This document shows, in pieces, positions 1,088-23,855 of a stretch of 25,981 bases of DNA. Each line of letters begins with the position of its first letter. The first letter of the stretch is position 1. The notes below the pieces were generated by a model that worked only from the letters and a program-made list of their open reading frames with translations, had not been told where the DNA came from and searched no databases. The stretch spans positions 1 through 25,981 of IMG/VR virus record IMGVR_UViG_3300047284_000539; one strand, given 5' to 3'. This DNA is from a virus. The position numbers and the translations under genes were made by a program.

Positions 1088-1161
1088 TCCGGTGTGGTAT
1101 AATGGCATTACGGCGGTCTCCAAAACCGTTGACGGGGGTTCGATTCCCTCCACCGGAGCCA
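1088..1161 (+). tRNA. tRNA-Trp (anticodon CCA)
   Basis: Acceptor stem TCCGGTG (1088-1094) pairs with CACCGGA (1151-1157), discriminator G1158, CCA tail encoded at 1159-1161. The D arm is GTA/TAC around TAATGGCAT. The anticodon loop is CTCCAAA, giving anticodon CCA, and the T loop is TTCGATT on a GGGGG/CCCTC stem. The CCA tail also forms the start of a 16-bp helix with 1279-1294. Confidence 0.95.
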
Positions 1162-1294
1162 TATTGAAGCACATTCGACACTGCGGCGTTCTGTCCATCC
1201 CTGATTCGAAGCAGGATATCGCCAAGCATTTCAAGCCCCGGTCGCTCCGGTCTGGTGCCTAAAAAAGAGATGGAAGAGTGTGTTTCAATATGGT
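1158..1294 (+). repeat. long inverted repeat A (16-bp helix starting in the tRNA-Trp CCA tail)
   Basis: Bases 1158-1173 (GCCATATTGAAGCACA) pair with 1279-1294 (TGTGTTTCAATATGGT), 14 Watson-Crick and 2 G-U pairs. The enclosed 105 nt hold a further hairpin (ATCC...GGAT inside GGCG...CGCC, about 1184-1222) and CCGG/CCGG. The 5' arm shares TGAAGCACATT with element C. Confidence 0.7.
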
Positions 1295-1307
1295 AAGAGT
1301 TCCGTAG

Positions 1308-1405
1308 CTAGTGACGATACACTAGACGCTACCTATTTCGATAGAATAGGCGGGTTATGCATTACACGATAATAATGCTTAGTAAGACACCTGACTGATA
1401 GGTGT
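1308..1405 (+). repeat. run of four perfect 6-bp hairpins
   Basis: Four hairpins follow each other with 6-8 nt loops: CTAGTG/CACTAG (1308-1325), CCTATT/AATAGG (1332-1350), GCATTA/TAATGC (1359-1378), ACACCT/AGGTGT (1387-1405). Such density is not expected by chance and supports a folded RNA rather than a decayed gene. GAGTGG/CCACTC (1428-1468) continues the series. Confidence 0.65.
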
Positions 1406-1468
1406 ATGACGGGGGAATAACAACCCAGAGTGGGGCCGGTATGCCTTGATACAGCTCAGTGGCCACTC

Positions 1469-1560
1469 ACCATATCCAAACGCATTGAGATTCGGAGTGA
1501 TCAACCGCGGCAATGCAGACAGCAGGAGATGAGCGACCTGCCAGTGCGTTTGGATATGGT
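1469..1560 (+). repeat. long inverted repeat B (perfect 16-bp helix)
   Basis: ACCATATCCAAACGCA (1469-1484) is the exact reverse complement of 1545-1560. The 60-nt interior has GCAGG/CCTGC (1522-1541) and TTGA/TCAA (1485-1504). The ends (ACCATA / TATGGT) match those of elements A and C. Confidence 0.75.
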
Positions 1561-1732
1561 AACGCCGAGTTCCAGTGCTGGTGATGTACATCAGCCCACA
1601 CCATTGCGGTAACAAATGGGGATCGACACAGGCCATACAGGTGTCAGGTATTTGTCTACACCCATGGTAGACATGACGGTGGATCACGACCCAGACAGGG
1701 GCCGGTGGAATTGAACAGCCCGGTAGCCTGTC

Positions 1733-1849
1733 ACCATAGTGAAGCACATTGCTCTCAGCAACACAGAGCATCCGCGGAGAGGACTGATCACGCTGGATTA
1801 TTTATCCAGGCTGCACATTCGACGACTCAGCAGTGTGCTTCACTATGGT
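1733..1849 (+). repeat. long inverted repeat C (perfect 16-bp helix) directly before tRNA-Tyr
   Basis: ACCATAGTGAAGCACA (1733-1748) is the exact reverse complement of 1834-1849. The interior has hairpins TGCTCT/AGAGCA (1750-1770) and CTGGAT/ATCCAG (1793-1809). It ends 5 nt before the tRNA-Tyr acceptor stem. Confidence 0.75.
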
Positions 1850-1854
1850 TTAAT

Positions 1855-1939
1855 GGATGACGGGCGGCATTGGCGACCGCAGCAGACTGTAAATCTGTAC
1901 TCTTTAGAGCATGGGGTTCGAATCCCTGGTCATCCACCA
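1855..1939 (+). tRNA. tRNA-Tyr (anticodon GTA), long variable arm
   Basis: Acceptor GGATGAC (1855-1861) pairs with GTCATCC (1929-1935), discriminator A, CCA encoded at 1937-1939. The anticodon loop is CTGTAAA on GCAGA/TCTGT, so GTA. The variable arm folds as CTCTTTAGAG, the class II arm expected of bacterial tRNA-Tyr. The T loop is TTCGAAT. Confidence 0.95.
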
Positions 1940-1948
1940 AAGCTTCAT

Positions 1949-2025
1949 TCCCCAGTAGCACAGTTGGTAGTTGCGCGGCACTGTTAATGCCGATGTCGTT
2001 CGTTCGAACCGAACCTGGGGAGCCA
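1949..2025 (+). tRNA. tRNA-Asn (anticodon GTT)
   Basis: Acceptor TCCCCAG (1949-1955) pairs with CTGGGGA (2015-2021), discriminator G, CCA encoded at 2023-2025. The anticodon arm is CGGCA CTGTTAA TGCCG, anticodon GTT. The T arm GTTCG/CGAAC is perfect. Confidence 0.95.
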
Positions 2026-2030
2026 TTTAT

Positions 2031-2108
2031 AGTACGGTGGCAGAGTGGTCAAATGCAGCGGTCCGCAAAACCGTAAAGCCGTGAGTTCGAATCTCACCCG
2101 TACTTCCA
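2031..2108 (+). tRNA. tRNA-Cys (anticodon GCA) with C at position 33
   Basis: Acceptor AGTACGG (2031-2037) pairs with CCGTACT (2098-2104); discriminator T2105 is the known Cys identity base; CCA encoded at 2106-2108. The anticodon arm is GCGGT CCGCAAA ACCGT, so the anticodon is GCA. Position 33 (base 2064) is C instead of the nearly universal U. The T arm GTGAG/CTCAC is perfect. It may be a working odd tRNA or a decaying one. Confidence 0.88.
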
Positions 2109-11808: not shown

Positions 11809-13107
11809 ATGTCAAGTTTAGGTGCTAAAGAAATCTACAAACGCCCTGGCCGCGTTGATACTTTTATTACGAAAATGCAGAACGGTAATCCGTTTGAGCT
11901 AGTTTCAGGCTCTTCCGTTGTTTTGAAGAATGATCCAAAGGTGGCAGCTGCGCTTCGGAGCATGCAAGACGTATCTAAAATTACTTTGGTATCAAAGACA
12001 ACTGGAGCAATAGTAAAATTTTCACAGCTAAAAAAGAGTAAAGAGTTTGGCGGAGGTACGGGAAGTGGAGCAGGGGCTGATGCAACAGCACTAAATGAAT
12101 CAGCACAAGCAGTTTTTGCAGCGGCCAGATGGATTAATAAACGTGTAAATAAGCTACCTGGAGACATGGTTTATTATGATGATAGTACATTTCTGGCTGG
12201 ATTGAAAAATTCTGACGTTACTAATACGTTAGAGGAGATTAAATCTCTTGATGACTCCTGGATTAAGTCTTCTGTTGCTGGTGCATCTAAACTATATTCA
12301 ATGTATGGCTCTAAGAAGTATACCTTTCATAGACAGAGCTCATGGGTAAAAAATCTAGAGCGACATTGGAAAACCCTCAATGCTGCAGCAGATAACCCGT
12401 TTTCGGATATTAATAAGTGGAGTCCTGCAGATATCTACCTAATTTCCGATAATGGGGCTAGAGCACCTATAAATTCTACTAAAAATTTAGTAGAACTCAA
12501 CAATCTCTTACTAGAAAACTTCAATTCTAAAGATATAGTGGGAGTTTCATTAAAGAAAATAACTTCTACAGCGCGCGCCACAGCATACAATATTGGAGAA
12601 AAAAAGAAAACTATCAAGTATGTTGATTATACGGTAGGTAAAGTTAACTTTTTTCAAGCCAAAGACGTCTATATTTACTTTACAGTTGATGGAGCCATAC
12701 AGTTTCGAACATTTCCTTCATTCCAGGGGGAAATAAAGGGGGAAGCAGCTGCTCAAGGAAAGATAGGATATGGCTCAGTGGCAAAGGTATTACGGGATAT
12801 CACTCAGCAATCTGCCCCAGAAATTAATGCTATTAAGCAGAAAATTCGTTCAAAGGACAATAACTTCCTCGACTCTTTCTTTTCTTTATACCAAGGGTTG
12901 TCAAAGGATCCGGTTAAACTCTCCAAAGCAAATTTTGTTACAAAGCTCCAAGAAAAGGATGAGGAGTGGCAGCTATCCAAATATTTGGGTTGTGTGATTA
13001 TAGACACTATAAAACGTAAGAAGGTTGAGGATCGTTTTGTTAGTGAAGTGATTAGCTACGCATCATCCACATCAAAACTTTCAGGTCCCTTTTTGAAATT
13101 AGAATAA
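11809..13107 (+). CDS. T4-like phage virion-associated protein (432 aa)
   Basis: ATG 11809 follows AGGTGA with 5-nt spacing. N-terminus FITKMQNGNPFELVSGSSVVL, then a Gly-rich linker (residues 80-90) and the block KWSPADIYLISDNG...LNNLLLENF...IVGVSLKKI (residues 203-250), which recurs in large structural proteins of T4-like and giant myoviruses. C-terminus is helical. It is coupled by TAATG to a PAAR spike-tip gene and has a late promoter, so a virion or baseplate role is likely. The precise role is not known; conceivably it is carried with the spike or injected. Confidence 0.65.
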   Translation: MSSLGAKEIYKRPGRVDTFITKMQNGNPFELVSGSSVVLKNDPKVAAALRSMQDVSKITLVSKTTGAIVKFSQLKKSKEFGGGTGSGAGADATALNESAQAVFAAARWINKRVNKLPGDMVYYDDSTFLAGLKNSDVTNTLEEIKSLDDSWIKSSVAGASKLYSMYGSKKYTFHRQSSWVKNLERHWKTLNAAADNPFSDINKWSPADIYLISDNGARAPINSTKNLVELNNLLLENFNSKDIVGVSLKKITSTARATAYNIGEKKKTIKYVDYTVGKVNFFQAKDVYIYFTVDGAIQFRTFPSFQGEIKGEAAAQGKIGYGSVAKVLRDITQQSAPEINAIKQKIRSKDNNFLDSFFSLYQGLSKDPVKLSKANFVTKLQEKDEEWQLSKYLGCVIIDTIKRKKVEDRFVSEVISYASSTSKLSGPFLKLE

Positions 13108-13385
13108 TGGCTATAAATCAGTGTCATCGTATTGAGGATCTCAATACTGCATATGCACCCATAATTTCTGTAGTACAAAGTACAGTATACTGCAATGGTA
13201 TACTAGTAGCTGTAGATGGTAGTCCTGTGAAACCCCATGGACTGCCTCCCCATGCAGCACCTGTTACTGCTAATGGCTCTCAAACTGTTTTTATAAATGG
13301 AACTCCTGTGAATAGAACTGGGGATCCGGATAGTTGTGGCCACCCCCGTATGAATCCAGGTAGTCCAAATACATACGTAGGTTGA
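13107..13385 (+). CDS. PAAR-motif spike tip protein (gp5.4-like, 92 aa)
   Basis: TAATG overlap with the preceding virion gene. Repeated short strands with GSPVKPHG (residues 39-45), FINGTPVNRTGDPDSCGHPR (about 62-81) and a PGS..TYVG end are typical of PAAR proteins, which cap the central tail spike and bind a metal by His/Cys (candidates H44, H49, C77, H79). Length matches T4 gp5.4 (97 aa). It would sit at the tip of the baseplate hub and pierce the outer membrane. Confidence 0.88.
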   Translation: MAINQCHRIEDLNTAYAPIISVVQSTVYCNGILVAVDGSPVKPHGLPPHAAPVTANGSQTVFINGTPVNRTGDPDSCGHPRMNPGSPNTYVG

Positions 13386-18898: not shown

Positions 18899-19798
18899 AT
18901 GGCATCAAATTTTGCATCCCTTAAAAAAGCTAGTAAGAATGATCTTGAGAAACTTACAGCTGAACTTCAAAAGCTTTCTACCCCTGCTGCAGCTACAAGT
19001 GAGGACACTCGTTTCTGGAAACCAGAGGTAGACAAATCTGGCAATGGTTATGCGGTAATCCGATTTCTTCCTGCTCCAGCTGGAGAGGATGTTCCATTCG
19101 TACGTATTTTTGATCATGCCTTTCAAGGTCCATCGGGCCAATGGTATATTGAAAAATCATTGACTACTCTAGGAGAAACGGATCCCGTTTCAGAGTATAA
19201 TCGCGAGCTTTGGGCAACTGGCTCTAAGTCCAATCAAGATCAAGTTCGTAAACAGAAACGACGTCTCTCATATATCAGCAACATCTATGTGGTTTCTGAT
19301 CCCAAACATCCAGAAAATGAGGGTAAGGTTTTTCTCTACCGTTATGGTAAAAAAATATTTGATAAGCTCACAGCAGCCATGGAGCCAGAGTTTGAAGATG
19401 AGAACGCAATCAATCCATTTGATCTTTGGCAAGGGGCTAATTTCAAACTGAAGATTCGTAAAGTTGAGGGATATCAGAATTACGATAAGTCGGAATTTGA
19501 GGCACCAGCTCCTCTACTTGATGACGATGATGATCTTGAAGCTCTCTGGAAGGGTGAGCATGCCTTACAGCCTTTCCTCGAACGAGGTCAGTTCAAAACC
19601 TTTAATGAGCTCAAGACCCGTCTTGATCGTGTTCTTGGTCTTTCCGGAACTGTGACCCCTGTTCAAGATCCTCCATTTGAAGTAGATGTAGAGGAGGAGT
19701 CAGTTGCAGCTAAACCTCGCCCAAAGAAAAAGGTTGAGGAAGTATTTGAGGATGATGATGACAATTTCTTCCAAAAACTTCAGGAAGAAGATGATTAA
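18899..19798 (+). CDS. 32: gp32-like single-stranded DNA-binding protein (299 aa)
   Basis: ATG 18899 behind CGGAGA. Features in order: basic N-terminal LAST-like motif (KKASK, residues 9-13) used in cooperative binding; OB-fold core with FWKPEVDKSGNGYAVIRFLP, FDHAFQGPSGQWYIEKSLTT and LYRYGKKIFDKL; acidic C-terminal tail (EDDDDNFFQKLQEEDD) that recruits replication proteins. T4 gp32 is 301 aa, so it is full length. No Cys at all, so the T4-type zinc site is missing. Convergent with the minus operon, stops overlapping by 3 nt. Confidence 0.93.
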   Translation: MASNFASLKKASKNDLEKLTAELQKLSTPAAATSEDTRFWKPEVDKSGNGYAVIRFLPAPAGEDVPFVRIFDHAFQGPSGQWYIEKSLTTLGETDPVSEYNRELWATGSKSNQDQVRKQKRRLSYISNIYVVSDPKHPENEGKVFLYRYGKKIFDKLTAAMEPEFEDENAINPFDLWQGANFKLKIRKVEGYQNYDKSEFEAPAPLLDDDDDLEALWKGEHALQPFLERGQFKTFNELKTRLDRVLGLSGTVTPVQDPPFEVDVEEESVAAKPRPKKKVEEVFEDDDDNFFQKLQEEDD

Positions 19799-22080
19799 GC
19801 AGCAGCAATAAATGTTGTAGTAAGATCGAGAGATCCCCTGTTCCCTAGTGGAGAGGGGATTTCTTGTTTCTGGGGAGCTCCTCCTCTACTACCACCTCCC
19901 CCACCACCTCCACCTCCTGCCACTATATTGGTAACCTGGGGGGCAGGTGCTGTTGCTGCAGATGCTACTTGAGTGGACATACGATTTAAATCTGGACTAG
20001 TTGGAGCACTTGCCATCATAGTAGCCGGAACAGATATAGAAGCAGTATCAGTTTTTTGAGCCTCTTGTGGCACCGGTTGAGCAGCTGCTGCTGATGCTGG
20101 AGTAGCACTAGCAGCAGGAGTAACAGCGGCCGCTGTAGGAGCTGCAGCTGCAACTTGAGTAGCAGCAGGAGTACTTGGCTTTGGTAATTTCCCACCACCT
20201 CCTGCGGCTGATGGAGCAGCCGCAGCTGTTGCAGCCTTTGGCGCATCAACTTTCGTTCCAGATGCCGGAACTACACCAGAGGAGCTCTTCGATGCAACCA
20301 TAACGGGAGCACCTGGATTGATAGGATTATCCCCTCCAAATGGTTTTCCTCGAGATTCTATAGGCTCAATGTGCCATGGCTCGCTGCGTATTGGTCTCAT
20401 GAGACCATATTTTGCAAAAAGGCCTGATGATTCCGCTTGATTAGCTTCAGCGGAATTCATATCAAAGGCTAGACCATGCTCATGTCTACTTTTTCCGGGA
20501 GGAGCTGCTCTGGAGGGATCTTTCGCATACAATTCAGCTTGCTTTTTGGGGTCTCTATATGCCGAATTAATTTGGATCTTACGTCCAAATTGCTGTTGAA
20601 ATTCTGAAGCGAATCCCGCCAATCGCTCTTTTAGAGCAGGATTCAATCCACTAATATCTACATTGGATCCTATTTTAGCAACTTGATCCAATGATTTGGA
20701 TGATCCTCCTGGTACAGCGGATGGAGCAGCTAGGGGGGTTGTGCTAGAAGGAACGGTAATGTTTCCTAGTTTGGGGGAATTATCCATTCCACCACCAGTA
20801 GCTGAAGATGAGGCTGACGGCATTGTTGTAGCAGCACTAGGCACATTAGATGCTGCTGGGCTCGTCGAGGGAACCGAAGGTGTTGTTGTAGCAGCAGTTA
20901 TTGGTTTATCTGGTCCGGCACCAAAAAAGCTAGCTATACCCTTTGAGGCTTTTTTGGTATCCAAAAGACCAAAGGTTAGTCCGGAAACAACACTACCTGC
21001 AGCAGACGATAGTTTCTCTCCCGTAGTGGCTTCTCTATCTTTGATATCCAAATTGGATGCCGCTTCCTGGTAACCCGAATAAGCATCAAATCCAGCCATT
21101 CCAGCGGCAGCAACTTGACCAATAACAGGAACAGCCTTTAGTAGTCCTTTACCCGCTGAAAGGACTTTATTAGCCTTCCCAGGTGCGTTTGGAACATCTT
21201 TAATGGTGTCAGCTGCTGCTGATGGCTTTGAAATCGATTCTAGAGGCTTTTCAGCCGTTATAACCCTATTCCGTTCTATACGCTCAGATCGTTCTCTAAT
21301 CTTATCTTCTGCTGTTTTAAGAAAACCGGGTTTTTCTACTATTGTTGTTTTTTCTTTAAGACCAGCGTTGACTGCTTCTGGCCTAGGTTGTATAATGCTT
21401 TTGTCAGCTCCAAATATATTCCTAACTTTACTATATGAATCTTTTATTGTATCTGCAATTTTATCATTGCTTGCAGCAACGAGAGCTCCACCTGTAGCTA
21501 GGGCACCAAGTATTTTACCACCTCTACCTATTTTAGATGCACCTGGTTTGGATGTTGGGGTAGCTGATGGGCCTGTAGGAGAAGCTGATGGACCCCTCAT
21601 TGGTATTTTGTTTAGTATATTTCCAGCAATGCCAGCACCGGATTTACCAAACAGGAGGCCAAGGCCAAGATTCTTCAATGCATCGAGGAAACCGGATTTG
21701 GGAGGTTCTTCTTTTATTTGATCATTTGTTGAACGAGGCTCTCTAGCTACCCTACTTTCTAATGAAGCTTCTTCCTTTTCTCTAGCTAGCTGTTCATCTC
21801 TTCTTCTTTGATATTCAAGAGTTTCTTCCAACAGGGATGCAACCTCATCCATTTTGTCCAATGTAAGGTTTTGTATCTCTTGAGATGTAAAGGAAATCTT
21901 ACTAATGCTCTGTATTGCTTCTAAATTTTCTGATGTTATTCTAACAATCTCATCGTTTGAAGCTTTATTGGCTACAAAAATCTCTAGAATTTTTTCTTGA
22001 AGGGGGAGAGAGCTAGCATTTGCATCATTGCTTGCTGATGAGCTGAATTTTGGTAGCGGCATTACGTTTTCTTGTAGCAT
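19795..22080 (-). CDS. tape-measure-like tail protein with M15 peptidase domain (761 aa)
   Basis: ATG at 22080 follows the upstream TAG directly (TAGATG); M7 is an alternative start. Residues 25-110 are helical and charged; hydrophobic Gly/Ala-rich segments at about 130-155, 186-204 and 315-335 resemble tape-measure membrane segments. Residues 473-580 are a peptidase M15 (VanY/Ala-D-Ala type) domain: SRHEHGLAFD (H533, D540) and EPWHIEP (E567, H570) give the zinc ligands and catalytic Glu. The rest is Ala/Pro/Thr/Gly-rich, with nine Gly in a row near the C-terminus. Position after a gp26 frameshift cassette suggests tape measure and cell-wall cutting in one protein; a hub lysin is the alternative. 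Confidence 0.75.
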   Translation of the reverse strand: MLQENVMPLPKFSSSASNDANASSLPLQEKILEIFVANKASNDEIVRITSENLEAIQSISKISFTSQEIQNLTLDKMDEVASLLEETLEYQRRRDEQLAREKEEASLESRVAREPRSTNDQIKEEPPKSGFLDALKNLGLGLLFGKSGAGIAGNILNKIPMRGPSASPTGPSATPTSKPGASKIGRGGKILGALATGGALVAASNDKIADTIKDSYSKVRNIFGADKSIIQPRPEAVNAGLKEKTTIVEKPGFLKTAEDKIRERSERIERNRVITAEKPLESISKPSAAADTIKDVPNAPGKANKVLSAGKGLLKAVPVIGQVAAAGMAGFDAYSGYQEAASNLDIKDREATTGEKLSSAAGSVVSGLTFGLLDTKKASKGIASFFGAGPDKPITAATTTPSVPSTSPAASNVPSAATTMPSASSSATGGGMDNSPKLGNITVPSSTTPLAAPSAVPGGSSKSLDQVAKIGSNVDISGLNPALKERLAGFASEFQQQFGRKIQINSAYRDPKKQAELYAKDPSRAAPPGKSRHEHGLAFDMNSAEANQAESSGLFAKYGLMRPIRSEPWHIEPIESRGKPFGGDNPINPGAPVMVASKSSSGVVPASGTKVDAPKAATAAAAPSAAGGGGKLPKPSTPAATQVAAAAPTAAAVTPAASATPASAAAAQPVPQEAQKTDTASISVPATMMASAPTSPDLNRMSTQVASAATAPAPQVTNIVAGGGGGGGGGSRGGAPQKQEIPSPLGNRGSLDLTTTFIAAA
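19833..19870 (+). terminator. terminator for gp32, inside the opposite gene
   Basis: ATCCCCT (19833-19839) pairs with AGGGGAT (19854-19860), followed by TTCTTGTTTC. It lies 35 nt after the gp32 stop and within the coding 3' end of the convergent gene. Confidence 0.5.
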
Positions 22081-22955
22081 CTATCGCCCACTCTGTAGTC
22101 GTTGTAGTTCGTTTTCTAAAAACTCCTTAAGCATATCTATGTAAAAATCACGTTCAAAAGGATAGAGATTTTCTATTTCAGTTATTGAATACTTGTGGTG
22201 CTGAGCCAAGGCAAAAATAGTTTTGTAATAATTTACTAAATTTGTATGACTCAGCGAAATGTAAAAAAATCTTCGAGAGTATTCAGAATAATTTTTCTAG
22301 GATTTCCCAATTTATTGGTATAGTCAATTGAATAGTACATTCTTGGGATAGATTCCAAGAAGTTTCTTATATCCCCTAGGGCCCCCGATGGTAATGACTC
22401 TAAAAACTCATTAATTTCCAATTCACTATAGTTTTTAAATTCCCATACTTCTGTTGGGCCAGTTAAGCTATCTAAACAATCTCTAACAATGGTTGAAAAT
22501 AAGTCAAGGTCACTCTCTGGAGTGTATTTGAGTAGAATCCTTGCAGATGGATGTTTCAGCTTGATAAGATAGTTGTTTGGTAGTTGGATATGGGAGGGAG
22601 CATTGCTTTCTCTGTTAATGGAGACCTGTTCCAAATTAACATTAAAGGTATAAAGTTGGTCATCTTCATTATCCTTAAATGTGAGCTCCACTTCTGATCC
22701 AATTGATTTGGCTCTAAGCATTAAAAACAAATATTCCAGATCATAGATGGAAAGGTCATCCATATTAACATCATCAGAAACCATGCAATTTTGTACGATC
22801 TGAAAAATAGAATTAATAAGATCTGAACGTTCATTAGATGATTGGGCAATCAAGAGAAGCTTTTCTTCTCTAACAAGAAATGGACGCACCTTAACCCCTT
22901 TGTTAGAGGATGGTATAGTAATTTCAAAGATTGGGTGATCAAATTTTGGTAACAT
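22081..22955 (-). CDS. gp26 -1 frameshift product (about 291 aa)
   Basis: A -1 slip on seven T (22263-22269 on the minus strand) after LEDFF joins gp26 residues 1-231 to a 60-aa extension: YISLSHTNLVNYYK..., then SITEIENLYPFERDFYIDML and a charged end. The extension frame is open for 15 sense codons before the slip, has no ATG until its last 17 codons and no RBS, so it can hardly be made alone. Lambda gpG/gpGT and many phages use such a shift to make a tape-measure chaperone, and the next gene is tape-measure-like. In T4, separate genes 26 and 51 lie here. Confidence 0.7.
22251..22955 (-). CDS. 26: gp26-like baseplate hub / assembly protein (234 aa)
   Basis: ATG at 22955 behind GGAG with 6-nt spacing. 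Blocks FEITIPSSNKGVKVRPFLVREEKLLLIA at the start (typical of T4 gp26 family base plate proteins), DDLSIYDLEYLFLMLRAKSIGSEVEL in the middle, LPSGALGDIRNFLESIPRM near the end. T4 gp26 (208 aa) is needed for hub assembly, and the family may act as a chaperone of the tape measure. The frame closes just after a T7 slippery run. Confidence 0.85.
   Translation of the reverse strand: MLPKFDHPIFEITIPSSNKGVKVRPFLVREEKLLLIAQSSNERSDLINSIFQIVQNCMVSDDVNMDDLSIYDLEYLFLMLRAKSIGSEVELTFKDNEDDQLYTFNVNLEQVSINRESNAPSHIQLPNNYLIKLKHPSARILLKYTPESDLDLFSTIVRDCLDSLTGPTEVWEFKNYSELEINEFLESLPSGALGDIRNFLESIPRMYYSIDYTNKLGNPRKIILNTLEDFFTFR
22263..22269 (-). other. slippery heptamer for -1 frameshift
   Basis: T TTT TTT in the gp26 frame (GAT TTT TTT ACA) permits both tRNA-Phe to re-pair after a -1 step. 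No clear downstream stem was found, so efficiency is uncertain. Confidence 0.65.
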
Positions 22956-22970
22956 AATTACTCCATTAAT

Positions 22971-23855
22971 TTAAATTCTACCAAGGGTGGTAGCAACCAG
23001 TTTAGCGTTATTAACAACGTTAACAACATCTCCAATAGTTTTAGGTTTTTTGATGGCACTAAGCACCTGAAGTACTGATCCCACCTGTAGGATTTTATCC
23101 ATAAAAGATGGACTTGCAGCAGAGTTTGGTCCCGATGTAGTACCAATTACGGTTTCGTCAATCCTGCTCAAAAAGGTGTTGTAGAATGAGAAGCTTACAG
23201 TGAAGCTCATAAAACTATCATTATCACTCCAACTGTATGGAACACTTTCAATGCTAAGAGGGAAGGCTCTATTGAGATCCATAACCAAAATTTCTTGTAA
23301 TGCCTCATTGTAAGTGGTGATTGTTATATCTGCAACATATTCGTCAATATATTCTAATTCGAACGGAAACACATTGCCGCCAACAGAGGTGGCTCTATTT
23401 TTGTGATTTACAGCTGAAATACTATTCATCCATTGTTGGAAGAATTTATACAGCAGCCCCTCCCCATCTCCTATGAAGGTAATTTGCGTTTCTGTGTAAA
23501 TAGCGTTGAAGGGTTTACGCTCCATGGGTCCAAACCCATACCTTCTAAAATCATCGCTGGTGAATTGAATGCCGGGCATATTAACACTTTCCGCAAGCAT
23601 TGGTATAACAGCTATTGCGTTGGTAGCCTGAGCGCTTCGGCCAGCTAATGTTCTTGGCATATTGATGTAGAGATCAAATAAATTTTTACGAGCTACTCCA
23701 GATTTTCTTAGCTGAGCCATAAATCCCATGTGCTTTCCACTTGGTTCGTTAGCAGCTAAGTTTTTGGATCCTGCTATTCCTCGTACAGTATCAATGATAC
23801 TCTTGACACCGTTGAAAGTATTGATTGCTTTTGTAGCAGTGGTGAGCAGACTCAT
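22971..23855 (-). CDS. 54: gp54-like baseplate tail-tube initiator (294 aa)
   Basis: ATGA overlap with the upstream gene. Pattern: helical N-terminus, ARKNLFDLYINMPRTL, AESVNMPGIQF, ERKPFNAIYTETQITFIGDG, FQQWMNSI, then FPFELEYIDEYVADITITTY and YSWSDNDSFMSFTVSFSFYN. This is the tail-tube fold shared by gp19, gp48 and gp54 (strand-rich, with W-containing loop). Size and place in the hub operon fit gp54 (T4: 320 aa), which starts tube growth on the baseplate. Assignment as gp54 rather than gp19 is inference. Confidence 0.7.
   Translation of the reverse strand: MSLLTTATKAINTFNGVKSIIDTVRGIAGSKNLAANEPSGKHMGFMAQLRKSGVARKNLFDLYINMPRTLAGRSAQATNAIAVIPMLAESVNMPGIQFTSDDFRRYGFGPMERKPFNAIYTETQITFIGDGEGLLYKFFQQWMNSISAVNHKNRATSVGGNVFPFELEYIDEYVADITITTYNEALQEILVMDLNRAFPLSIESVPYSWSDNDSFMSFTVSFSFYNTFLSRIDETVIGTTSGPNSAASPSFMDKILQVGSVLQVLSAIKKPKTIGDVVNVVNNAKLVATTLGRI

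Follow-up and report, generated by a model that had tools for sequence, protein, structure and literature searches.

A gp26-like gene of a T4-like virus very likely encodes short and long tail-assembly chaperone forms through programmed -1 frameshifting

We analyzed the linear virus record IMGVR_UViG_3300047284_000539 (25,981 bases, the whole stretch being called the window here), which carries T4-like genes, and propose with high confidence that its gp26-like gene makes a tail-assembly chaperone (TAC) in a short and a long form, from one gene, via a -1 slip. Programmed -1 frameshifting at this gene appears very likely, because a slippery heptamer and an open -1 frame are conserved among relatives and a downstream stem carries compensatory changes. 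The sequence data strongly support a frameshift adding a gp51-type C-terminal domain to the gp26-type protein, given the conservation, the lack of an alternative start and the RNA elements around the slip; on the same grounds the first-pass annotation of the window, which had proposed a programmed -1 frameshift in gp26, is upheld.

As that annotation had read it, the gp26 frame enters T TTT TTT (22269-22263, minus strand) in the phase of a -1 slip and stops soon afterwards, although the TGA at 22253-22251 lies 9 nt past the heptamer and not 10 nt as it had counted. The -1 frame then reads FF-YISLSHTNLVNYYKTIFALAQHHKYSITEIENLYPFERDFYIDMLKEFLENELQRLQSGR and stays open for the 60 further codons claimed, its TAG at 22083-22081 abutting the next ATG at 22080. 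The claim of no ATG near the start of this frame was likewise correct: of ATG, GTG and TTG, the earliest is a TTG that lies 20 codons beyond the slip, and ATG does not occur before codon 45. Runs of seven T were counted 14 times on both strands of the window vs 11.9 expected, so the run alone is unremarkable. A T4-style second long gene, with the extension inside a single open reading frame (ORF), was not seen in this 26 kb linear fragment, only the frameshift copy.

The first-pass annotation had named an alignment of gp26 homologs, for a conserved slip site and extension, as a check. It is the conservation that goes beyond chance. In a sample of 161 distinct loci from the window, four isolates and IMG/VR contigs, which fall into 98 clusters at 80% amino acid identity, the in-phase T_TTT_TT(T/C/A) was kept in 161/161 loci, 0-9 nt ahead of the 0-frame stop, with T (50), C (110) or A (1) as the last base, and the -1 frame was open in all 161, with an extension of 56-69 codons unless a contig end cuts it. 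Elsewhere in the same genes the pattern was present in 24 of 34,871 other codon phases; FF at the slip site was always preceded by T, and FF elsewhere in only 26 of 164 cases; these other FF pairs are mostly TTC TTT. The codon immediately before the slip is a -1 stop in 15/161 loci, therefore nothing feeds into the -1 frame from upstream there. Differences in the -1 frame among the window's relatives were 0.35, 0.22 and 0.51 by codon position, and this third-position excess marks the frame as coding. One G+C-rich relative (L043, 3166-3357) retains T_TTT_TTA as its slip; its extension has diverged, and a different strong structure is predicted there.

Both halves of the proposed product fit the gp26/gp51 family: the N-domain matches PF12322, and the extension matches the gp51 family phrog_634 (baseplate hub assembly catalyst; E 2e-22). 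By tblastn, 675 phage records contain gp26 relatives and 578 contain the extension; cyanophages predominate, and the two are mostly annotated there as separate genes. The AF2 model of the gp26-like N-domain (pLDDT 92) resembles predicted baseplate hub and chaperone proteins in many phages. For the same fold (model mefc058441165, window 22254-22955), the matches extend to predicted proteins in very distant phages, jumbo phages and siphoviruses among them. A Pfam scan of 29 extensions gave chance hits only, and a single-sequence search found no near relatives of the window.

The RNA around the slip was analyzed with dinucleotide shuffles and with a codon-preserving null, in which the protein is fixed and synonymous codons are redrawn. 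The 103 nt after the window heptamer have a folding energy of -21.7 kcal/mol (z -4.39 vs dinucleotide shuffles), and under the codon null the mean z of the slip segment was -4.05 for the window type (n=30), -2.66 for the cyanophage type (26) and -3.10 for a third class (18), vs -0.05 to -0.72 for control segments within gp26 and -0.56 to 0.14 for segments 20 codons further. The window-type stem begins 7 nt past the heptamer and pairs GCUGAGUCA with UGGCUCAGC in 9 bp around a 38-nt loop; over 50 sequences 82.2% of cells are paired vs 22-43% when slid, with 26 compensatory double changes vs 7.5 in shuffles. RNAalifold on 23 sequences alone gave a weak consensus energy, whereas the codon-preserving null and larger alignments gave a clear signal. 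The P-SSM2-type hairpin has 11 pairs (94.3% of cells paired vs 26-44% slid), and at columns 14/28 the pair changes among U-A, A-U and G-C. The possible gp51 ATG of P-SSM2 (L002, 3702-3760) and its relatives lies within this conserved hairpin, and the nearest Shine-Dalgarno (SD) sequence is 25 nt away from it.

In the cyanophage-type loci GAGG, an internal SD, ends 10 nt ahead of the heptamer, and the Glu codon at this place is GAG in 101/121 vs 30% elsewhere (p 2e-33). A strong SD accompanies TTTTTTC (92 vs 10), and the absence of an SD accompanies TTTTTTT (32 vs 2), in counts uncorrected for phylogeny. For E. coli, a review of -1 signals (PMC4066793) places structures usually 5-8 nt downstream, and SD-like sequences that stimulate slippage 6-17 nt upstream; the 7-nt spacing of the window stem and the spacing of the cyanophage SD both fit these ranges. 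A stimulatory RNA element, which is usual and not obligatory for the G/GT type, is thus present at the proper spacing in the form of the covarying stem.

The sequence layout, the conservation, the lack of alternative starts, the covarying stem and the homology of the extension to the T4 gp51 C-terminus are shown here, and from them we infer that slippage occurs, with some efficiency, and that the products act as chaperones. Most ribosomes would terminate at 22251, giving the short gp26-type protein, while a minority would stall at the stem 7 nt downstream and step back one base on T_TTT_TTT, with both tRNA-Phe re-pairing on TTT, and then translate 60 more codons into a gp26-gp51 fusion. On the model of lambda G/GT, the tape measure protein would be coated by the short form, and the few long copies would recruit tail tube subunits through their C-terminal domain.

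The locus could alternatively be two ordinary overlapping genes, with gp51 starting by itself just past the slip and translated separately. P-SSM2 and its relatives are indeed annotated in this way, with an ATG 8 nt past the heptamer, and an ATG stands at that place in most cyanophage-type loci; the P-SSM2 ATG is, however, buried in the hairpin far from an SD, in the window the first start codon comes only 20 codons on, and the extension is without any ATG in 35/161 loci and without ATG/GTG/TTG in 15/161. A separate start would also need no in-phase heptamer, yet all 161 loci have one, and we regard independent translation of gp51 as highly improbable. Hundreds of records probably carry a mistaken annotation of gp51 as a separate gene.

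A homopolymer sequencing or assembly error splitting a single ORF would be suggested by the error-prone context of a seven-T run, but 161 distinct loci share the frame break, and in 110 the site is T_TTT_TTC instead of seven T; the break is found also in finished isolate genomes such as P-SSM2, Cr30 and phiM12. Judged on these homologous sequences, such an error is already refuted, with a probability close to nil. The homopolymeric T run of the window type would equally allow the long form to arise by transcriptional rather than ribosomal slippage; seven T, or six T and C (110/161), are short for polymerase slippage, and the conserved stem and the cyanophage SD ~10 nt upstream have the spacings expected of ribosomal stimulators, leaving polymerase slippage only a very slight chance.

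Several points weigh against a short and long chaperone made by frameshifting in the window. The extension scored within the shuffled range against lambda T and P2 E' in hhalign, with no sequence similarity, and the N-domain model had no credible match in the PDB by fold or by sequence. The window is without the internal SD of its cyanophage relatives, and the shuffle and codon-null tests are uncorrected for phylogeny. The chaperone role of the gp26-like products is suggested by analogy, and the 761-aa ORF that follows them would be a tape-measure candidate by position only.

The gp26-like gene sits between a tail tube-like gene and this 761-aa ORF (Table 1). The first-pass annotation had called the next gene tape-measure-like; the position fits, but comparison with T4 gp29 detected no homology, with weak C-terminal matches only. 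The ORF has two hydrophobic segments. Among relatives it (19795-22080) is very poorly conserved, a short C-terminal stretch excepted.

Table 1. Features of the gp26-like locus and neighboring genes in the window (RBS, ribosome-binding site)
Feature	Position	Strand	Evidence or remark
gp4-like gene	24888-24448	-	first in listed minus-strand order
gp2-like gene	24448-23852	-	after gp4-like gene in minus-strand order
tail tube-like gene	22971..23855	-	directly upstream of gp26-like ORF; phrog_45 tail tube 4e-30
GGAG RBS of gp26-like ORF	22961..22964	-	5 nt ahead of ATG; sequence context
gp26-like ORF, short tail-assembly chaperone (TAC-N, putative), 234 aa	22251..22955	-	PF12322 T4_baseplate E 2e-44; phrog_150 baseplate hub 1e-48
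slippery heptamer T_TTT_TTT	22263..22269	-	phase fits -1 slip
0-frame stop TGA	22251..22253	-	9 nt past heptamer; within 5' arm of stem
5' arm of downstream stem, GCUGAGUCA	22247..22255	-	fold z, covariation, synonymous-codon null
3' arm of downstream stem, UGGCUCAGC	22200..22208	-	fold z, covariation
-1 frame extension (TAC-C, gp51-type), 62 codons from heptamer and TAG	22081..22269	-	phrog_634 E 2e-22
predicted frameshift product gp26-51 (long form, TAC-NC)	22081..22955	-	single-ORF counterpart is T4 gp51
761-aa ORF	19795..22080	-	VanY/M15 peptidase domain, PF02557 E 2e-7

Elsewhere in the window we observed four tRNA genes (Trp, Tyr, Asn, Cys; 1088-2108, plus strand) and a 92-aa ORF (13107-13385, plus strand) that by eye has the look of a PAAR-type spike tip protein, a putative assignment.

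Vladimirov, Gautam and Davidson reportedly described, in the abstract of a 2022 paper, frameshifting retained in several T4-like groups, with T4's own group having separate genes, and their 26/51-type genes are said to yield the short and long forms TAC-N and TAC-NC. A 2016 review had treated T4 as an exception to the G-T frameshift rule (PMC5009743). The PRFect paper cites the 2022 study (Virology 566:9-15) for T4-like phages in which a short gene stands beside a long fusion gene (PMC10885494), and the paper on phage Adele credits it with poly-T frameshift signals in T4-like TAC genes (PMC12846349). The tie that the first-pass annotation drew between 26/51 and the lambda-type chaperone scheme was therefore correct but, as far as these citing papers describe the study, not new: the short/long scheme in T4-like phages was already published in 2022, and the window locus is a well-supported new example. 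No earlier description of the clade-specific stem, hairpin and internal SD was found in the literature searched, which excluded the 2022 original, and these stimulators may be a new detail.

The significance extends beyond the window. The large comparative sample supports one frameshifted gene, usually annotated as two, in hundreds of T4-like phage records (the extension is in 578), and the T4 "hub assembly catalyst" gp51 would be recast as a tail-assembly chaperone in its long form. Frameshifting with varied stimulators vs gene duplication would form a natural series for the keeping of a fixed two-form ratio in evolution. We give an even chance to the idea of one cassette with stimulators swapped between T4-like lineages, in which cyanophages have T_TTT_TTC, an internal SD ~10 nt upstream and a short hairpin burying the annotated gp51 start, the window lineage has T_TTT_TTT, no SD and a long-range stem with arms formed by conserved LSH and LAQHH codons, and T4 traded frameshifting for gene duplication.

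In T4, as the first-pass annotation had stated, genes 26 and 51 are separate; they are adjacent and divergent, while the window has one gene with a frameshift. T4 gp26 (208 aa) is the PF12322 domain only, and gp51 (249 aa) is this domain (residues 1-201) and a C-terminal stretch of the extension family (phrog_634 1e-23; hhalign 31 vs <=15 for shuffles). T4 gp26 lost the slip site: the FF codons at the 3' end of gene 26 are TTC TTT, and a stop follows immediately in the -1 frame. In T4 each form thus has its own gene, gp51 carrying the domain together with the extension and gp26 being without a slip site. A T4-type gp51 gene on one contig (L095, 2501-3246) is broken mid-gene by a frame change after residue ~118, far from slip sites, which is an error or mutation. 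The marine cyanophages (P-SSM2, S-PM2) have the homologous gene and extension with the slip T_TTT_TTC, together with a short local hairpin and an internal SD ahead of the slip, in contrast to the long-range stem of the window. Sullivan et al. 2010 had pointed out that gp51 of cyanophages reaches only ~20% of the length and has a similar C-terminus (PMC3037559).

Among other frameshifted chaperones, the -1 site of the Vandenendeviridae TAC (phage Adele) is a conserved poly-T, with the motif GTTTTT and in a different family (PMC12846349). P2 E/E+E' has a T_TTT_TTG slip and a -1 extension and adjoins the tape measure gene T, but differs in its N-domain of ~90 aa; a search for P2 E' relatives to build a profile returned identical copies only. 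The G/GT-like layout that the first-pass annotation had recognized holds, and it is reinforced by T4 gp51, which has the gp26-like domain and the same extension in one ORF. The window order of a tail tube-like gene, a putative chaperone with its -1 extension and a long ORF matches both lambda G/GT and P2 E/E+E'; the lambda slip site differs. Our claim is that the locus functions like G/GT and belongs to the gp26/gp51 family; homology to lambda G/GT is not claimed.
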